A DNA stretch of 64,000 nt from Longimicrobiales bacterium (GTDB lineage: Bacteria > Gemmatimonadota > Gemmatimonadetes > Longimicrobiales > Gaopeijiaceae), in contig OX638356.1 in the NCBI GenBank assembly GCA_951813395.1, positions 3,236,501 through 3,300,500 on the forward strand. The letters are read 5' to 3'. Each line of letters starts with the position of its first letter. The stretch's first letter is position 1. A program made the translations under genes and the position numbers. Of this stretch, positions 53,526-54,759 are shown piece by piece. The notes under the pieces are model-generated. The model searched no databases. It was not told the DNA's origin and worked only from the letters and a program-made list of their open reading frames with translations.

Positions 53526-53918
<393 letters not shown>

Positions 53919-54024
53919 TGAATGATGATAGCGACCGCCCGGTGCCGGCCATAGCCCGCGACGGCAACGAGATCGGGAATCCGAGACTCGCTGTCCTCTA
54001 ACTCAAGTCAGCACAACGGAACAA

Positions 54025-54050
54025 ATGTCTTGCACATTTGTGCAAGACAT
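54025..54050. promoter_or_regulatory. Perfect 26-bp palindrome, candidate operator
   Basis: ATGTCTTGCACA (54025-54036), centre TT, TGTGCAAGACAT (54039-54050): 12-base arms without a mismatch, in an AT-richer island between rnpB and the histidine phosphatase gene, 65 bases before that gene's ATG. No T-run follows, so an operator is more likely than a terminator. The bound regulator is unknown. Confidence 0.65.
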
Positions 54051-54114
54051 GCGATTGTGGGTCCGTGACGTTCCCCGAGTCCACGACCTTCCAACCTGGG
54101 AAGCCCAGCTCGGA

Positions 54115-54759
54115 ATGACCCGGAACCGCTTTGCGAAGGCTTCGAGAGCCTTGTGCTGGCTCCTCGCGACAGCCGCCCTCGGATCGTCCCCGGACGCCGC
54201 GTTCGCGGTGTCCCCCGCCTGGATGCAACTGCCCCCGGCCGCGCCCGACAGCGAGGCTGTTGTCGTGTATCTGGTGCGCCACGCGGAGCGAGCTGAAGAC
54301 GGAACGGACGATCCACCGTTGGCGCTTGCCGGCCAGATCCGCGTTCGGCAGCTCCTGGGCATGCTCGCGGACGTGACCCTGACCCACGTACACACGAGCG
54401 ACTTCAAGCGCACTCGGGACACGGCTCGTCCATTTGCCGAGAGGGCCGGGGTGGAATACGCGATCTACGATCCGCGCGAGCTGGAGGCGCTGGCCACGGA
54501 GATCGCGGCGACTCCCGGGCGCCATCTCGTGGCCGGTCACAGCAACACGACGCCCCAGCTGGTGGCGGCGCTGGGAGGCAACCCTTCGGATCCGATCGAC
54601 GAACTCGAATACGATCGGCTCTACATCCTGGTCATTCAGCCGGACAAACCGGCGATGACAACCCTGCTACGCTTCGGGGAGCCATACGTCGAAGGCCAGG
54701 ATTTCGGCCTGCGCGCCGGATCCACTGCGCTCAGAAGCTCACCACGAGGGCCACGGTAA
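54115..54759 (+). CDS. Secreted histidine phosphatase (phosphoglycerate mutase/SixA-like)
   Basis: Protein of 214 aa from ATG 54115. A signal peptide (about 1-31, ending DAAFA) and then LVRHAER with the nucleophile His, HTSDFKRTRDTARP and the second His in VAGHSNTTPQLV are present. These fit a compact histidine-acid phosphatase exported to the periplasm. Substrate is unknown. The frame is open 30 codons further upstream through the palindrome, but the signal peptide begins at 54115. Confidence 0.85.
   Translation: MTRNRFAKASRALCWLLATAALGSSPDAAFAVSPAWMQLPPAAPDSEAVVVYLVRHAERAEDGTDDPPLALAGQIRVRQLLGMLADVTLTHVHTSDFKRTRDTARPFAERAGVEYAIYDPRELEALATEIAATPGRHLVAGHSNTTPQLVAALGGNPSDPIDELEYDRLYILVIQPDKPAMTTLLRFGEPYVEGQDFGLRAGSTALRSSPRGPR

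Follow-up and report, generated by a model that had tools for sequence, protein, structure and literature searches.

A perfect 26-base palindrome in front of a histidine phosphatase gene is absent from the nearest relatives of the genome that carries it and coincides with a tight cluster of base changes. In our estimate there is about an even chance that it records a lineage-specific change of promoter made by a template switch, in which case its perfection would not come from selection for a repressor. Coordinates below are those of the window, by which we mean the whole stretch of DNA that was analyzed (64,000 nucleotides), and the features on which the argument turns are the following.

53529 to 53910, minus strand: rnpB, the class A RNA of RNase P, divergent from the phosphatase gene
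53925 to 53930, minus strand: possible -10 element of rnpB (TATCAT), assigned by eye and identical in the four closest genomes
53997 to 54009, no strand assigned: TCTAACTCAAGTC, identical in the four closest genomes and about 21 bases upstream of site B
54017 to 54032, no strand assigned: site B (CGGAACAAATGTCTTG), a degenerate copy of a dyad found in the genus, shared without change by this genome and the three nearest relatives
54025 to 54050, no strand assigned: perfect inverted repeat ATGTCTTGCACA-TT-TGTGCAAGACAT, with 12-base arms that are 100% complementary
54030 to 54035, plus strand: probable -35 hexamer TTGCAC of the phosphatase gene, inside the palindrome, with an aligned TTG in most same-genus loci
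54034 to 54041, no strand assigned: ACATTTGT, the palindrome's center, reverse complement of ACAAATGT at 54021 to 54028
54034 to 54046, plus strand: cluster of substitutions that creates the palindrome, where the three nearest relatives differ at 8, 7 and 11 positions
54053 to 54058, plus strand: probable -10 hexamer GATTGT, placed by comparison and reading GATTAT in the three nearest relatives
54115 to 54759, plus strand: histidine phosphatase, branch 1 (PF00300, E 2.3e-12), starting at about 54115

The palindrome itself is as an earlier note had described it, with two arms free of mismatches around a central TT. The AT-rich island in which that note placed it, between rnpB and the phosphatase gene, proved to be among the AT-richest spots of the window: the 60 bases from 54005 to 54064 have a GC content of 46.7%, against 67.6% window-wide, and 0.2% of the window's 60-base segments are equally GC-poor. 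The further claim that the palindrome is too perfect for chance depends on scale. Base composition alone predicts, per 64 kb, 0.17 perfect inverted repeats whose arms have at least 12 bases and whose gaps are 0 to 10 (0.015 with a gap of 2), which makes the palindrome rare for the window, but it predicts about 11 genome-wide (4.09 Mb, a single contig); the palindrome is therefore unusual where it lies and not unique in kind. Over 864 kb, made up of 40 sampled stretches and the window, we observed seven perfect inverted repeats with arms of at least 12 bases against 2.2 expected. The other six have more G+C than the studied palindrome (38%), and two of these six sit in identical copies of one repeated stretch. 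Three identical copies of another perfect palindrome, 36 bases long, are also present in the genome (L113:17402-17437, L117:16374-16409 and L179, at genome positions 1017402, 1816374 and 1654189, respectively); the two copies that were compared lie inside an identical 1547-base stretch that adjoins a transposase-like gene (by eye) and is probably an insertion sequence. At L108:12703-12741 we saw a perfect inverted repeat of 39 bases whose arms are 19 bases long.

The perfect form was found in no genome but the one that carries it. With up to one mismatch allowed, the inner 20 bases were absent from the other 394 of the 395 phylum genomes searched, and the three nearest relatives, whose phosphatases are 87-88% identical, lack the palindrome. 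These relatives retain its left nine bases (AACGGAACAAATGTCTTGC) and the -10 region, while the bases in between differ; the spacer sequence also varies among the three themselves. Relaxing the query to the inner 18 bases with up to two mismatches gave matches in 25 of 148 genomes, its own among them, with two mismatches at every place outside that genome, and in the 22 other genomes of the genus there were 3 matches against 27 for the reversed control. The earlier note had proposed looking for other copies in the genome; at up to three mismatches there is no second one. Nor is the core TTGCACNNNNGTGCAA enriched there: allowing up to two mismatches, it has 45 forward matches and its reversed control 65, and at up to one mismatch it has four, itself counted. 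On the strength of the single copy and this lack of enrichment we rejected the idea of a repeated motif, and a phage origin was likewise rejected, since the inner 20 bases have no exact match in viral_contigs. As a candidate for a conserved operator, the palindrome is neither kept in orthologous promoters nor repeated before other genes.

The changes that distinguish it are concentrated. Beside those within 54034 to 54046, the other 68 columns of 54000 to 54080 hold 4, 6 and 6 changes against the same three relatives. When an equal number of random substitutions was placed in the same stretch, arms of at least 12 bases arose in 1, 0 and 1 of 20001 trials per relative (2 of 60003 in total). Two reverse-complement copies account for 8 of 9, 8 of 9 and 11 of 12 substitutions over 40 columns, a single copy for 5, 5 and 7, and random substitutions in the same columns reached the two-copy fit in 28, 6 and 1 of 2000 trials. 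A control that allowed two direct-copy events explained 7, 5 and 8 changes against 8, 8 and 11, which leaves a margin of a single change for the first relative. The polarity of the change is based on the three close relatives together with more distant ones.

We infer a template switch from these comparisons and picture it as follows. The left nine bases of the palindrome would be old, comprising the right side of a conserved stretch that resembles an operator and the start of the -35 hexamer, and the center and most of the right arm would be new, filling the 17-base spacer with reverse-complement copies of conserved bases upstream. A polymerase switching template at a quasi-palindrome could have produced these copies, ACATTTGT from ACAAATGT (54021-54028) and GCAAGACAT from ATGTCTTGC (54025-54033). 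Perfection would then be a by-product of the mutation mechanism rather than of repressor selection; with a copying slip as the origin, perfect arms need not mean shaping for repressor binding, and a dedicated repressor would not be needed. We go no further than even odds because two copied segments are required and because the copy test shares information with the palindrome's own perfection. In addition, ACATTTGT matches the core of the genus dyad, as selection for a second operator would explain.

Processes of this kind have been described elsewhere. In E. coli, template switches make quasi-palindromes more perfect (PMC7202029), and the likeness is that clustered changes perfect an imperfect inverted repeat; unlike that case, ours is deduced from three related genomes, involves two segments and lies in a probable promoter spacer. 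According to a second study (PMC8794818), one template-switch event can create perfect stems, with a reverse-complement copy of adjacent sequence giving the stem as it would here, but there the setting is RNA genes and here it is promoter DNA that is probably untranscribed. We found no case of a template switch in a promoter in the literature searched and make no claim that none is in print.

The altered bases fall within what is probably a weak sigma-70-like promoter of the phosphatase gene, TTGCAC-17-GATTGT, as judged by comparing loci. A search that required both TTG and NANNNT found TTG-17-NANNNT with an aligned TTG in 16 of the 22 loci from the genus, a count made without a shuffled control and including one locus (G018) in which another candidate tied. 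The pattern is not at the aligned place in five loci (G001, G005, G009, G013 and G015), and in G008 it is positioned differently relative to the dyad. The hexamers of the studied genome agree with the consensus at 6 of 12 positions, the weakest of the 16 (the others agree at 7 to 10), and a stricter scan, for which 9 of 12 were required, did not report a phosphatase promoter. The palindrome spans the candidate -35 and 15 of the 17 spacer bases, and it would therefore lie upstream of transcription and not act as a terminator. Matches to the phosphatase were found in 44 of 59 genomes, the own genome counted. Although the frame can be read without a stop from 54025 in all four closest genomes, we preferred 54115 as the start, judging by eye, because more distant relatives start nearby and because a stretch that by eye resembles a signal peptide, and would stand at the N-terminus, would otherwise be internal.

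Beside the palindrome lies an older dyad. Thirty loci were fetched from the 44 genomes with a phosphatase match, only 8 of them from outside the genus. Upstream of the phosphatase gene, 15 of the 22 same-genus loci have a match to the dyad GGAAACAWWTGTTTCC that outscores at least 99% of 200 shuffles, as none of the 8 outside loci does, in a test that is partly circular because the consensus was drawn from the loci then scored. The dyad was noted before the phosphatase gene in loci L033-L050, and in one locus, G008, it is perfect. A second match stands 43-45 bases downstream in 10 loci, and a match stands 22 bases away in 4 loci at a score of at least 9, or in 5 with a weaker pair in G011; further spacings are 19, 24, 26, 27 and 37. 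Being close to two and four turns of the helix, such spacings suggest an array of proteins, on a pattern taken without a spacing control. Site B is the downstream site of this array, and its right part is the palindrome's left arm; it matches 9 of 14 positions of the consensus GGAAACANNTGTTTCC, which 35% of shuffles also reach, so that it does no better than shuffles. TCTAACTCAAGTC is a possible remnant of the middle site, by its likeness, seen by eye, to the middle stretch of other members, and in two of the three nearest relatives (G019 and G016) another weak match to the dyad overlies the -10.

Outside the phosphatase loci, we found no group of genes that the dyad defines. At up to two mismatches, GGAAACANNTGTTTCC matches the own genome at 12 places, against 3 for the reversed control; 11 lie within frames predicted by a crude caller (those at L058, L061 and L064 being doubtful) and one, L069, lies outside. 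Across the genus there are 18 places at up to one mismatch, 3 of them upstream of the phosphatase, and 14 of the other 15 were inspected, with 11 in predicted frames and 3 outside (L080, L089 and L092). The dyad before a sodium symporter gene (L061) is not conserved: it scores 12 here, and the 13 other orthologues that remained after 4 of the 18 had been left out score 7-10. On these results we rejected a shared regulon. We also noted GGAAACATATTTTTCG at L064:1501-1516, close to the start of a gene for a SurA-like foldase and to a divergent gene for a type II dehydroquinase. In the literature, matches to spellings of the dyad included two primer sequences.

The dyad bears on the earlier note's view of the palindrome as a dimeric repressor site, which is upheld to the extent that an operator-like dyad is nearby in 15 of 22 loci but not for the perfect palindrome itself, confined as it is to one genome and one copy. 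Like the operators of dimeric repressors that lie over a -35 and spacer, the palindrome has two-fold symmetry over the candidate -35, an AT-rich promoter context and an older dyad adjoining it; unlike them, it is not conserved and has neither a second copy nor a known regulator. It could be a working second operator of the dyad's putative regulator, with an ACAWWTGT core in the spacer blocking RNA polymerase, a reading we think unlikely while giving it real weight. ACAWWTGT is the core of the dyad GGAAACAWWTGTTTCC, the palindrome's center carries it where a repressor would act, and dyad matches do come in pairs (43-45 bases apart in 10 loci, 22 in 4-5), although their spacings vary, lack a control and belong to a consensus taken from the scored loci. 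The four bases flanking the core on each side, however, disagree with the dyad (TTGC versus GGAA), and the palindrome does not qualify as a copy of GGAAACANNTGTTTCC: it agrees at six core positions and at none of the eight outer ones, and therefore scores 6 of 14. Its center is moreover 13 bases from that of site B, so that two dimers would overlap, and no other genome searched has it. We favor a merely altered spacer over a second operator. That the template switch copied the conserved operator core into the -35/-10 spacer, so that this lineage gained a new repressor site and the gene's control was rewired, strikes us as rather improbable. An operator for another, dedicated dimeric regulator, LexA-like for example, is very improbable. 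LexA-like sites in Fibrobacter have the form TGCNC-N4-GTGCA, which the inner TGCAC-ATTT-GTGCA fits, and a location over the -35 suits a repressor, but TTGCACNNNNGTGCAA is no commoner than its reversed control, and none of the five neighboring proteins scanned (the phosphatase, TerC, DUF481, a Glu/Leu-dehydrogenase-like protein and one without a hit) is such a regulator. The earlier note's statement that the regulator is not encoded nearby thus holds for those five.

Two readings dispense with a regulator altogether. The spacer may simply have drifted, the palindrome arising by chance and being noticed for its striking look; variation of the spacer among the three relatives and the genome-wide expectation of about 11 such repeats speak for this, but random substitution of the relatives' sequence so seldom gave such arms (2 of 60003 trials) that we hold it to be quite improbable. 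The palindrome might also work as RNA, as a terminator or attenuator hairpin, and a 56-base segment of its strand, taken as single-stranded DNA, does fold well (-15.5 kcal/mol, z -4.5). This reading is scarcely credible: the ten bases directly 3' of the palindrome are GCGATTGTGG, bearing out the note's remark that a terminator T-run is missing, the terminator scan did not report the palindrome, and it lies downstream of no transcribed gene. The transcripts of rnpB and of the phosphatase gene would each begin past the palindrome and lead away from it, and a terminator at this place would have no transcript to end. A terminator was accordingly rejected, and the palindrome is very probably not one.

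The wider point is that perfect symmetry does not by itself mark a promoter palindrome as an operator shaped by selection, and that comparison with relatives can reveal a mutational origin. Should this palindrome function as an operator, it would be an instance from nature of a gene acquiring regulation by way of a copying event, and if a new repressor site was born here, it would have arisen by hairpin-templated copying instead of point mutations. The dyad array before the phosphatase gene offers a separate lead to a putative regulator in a little-cultured phylum.
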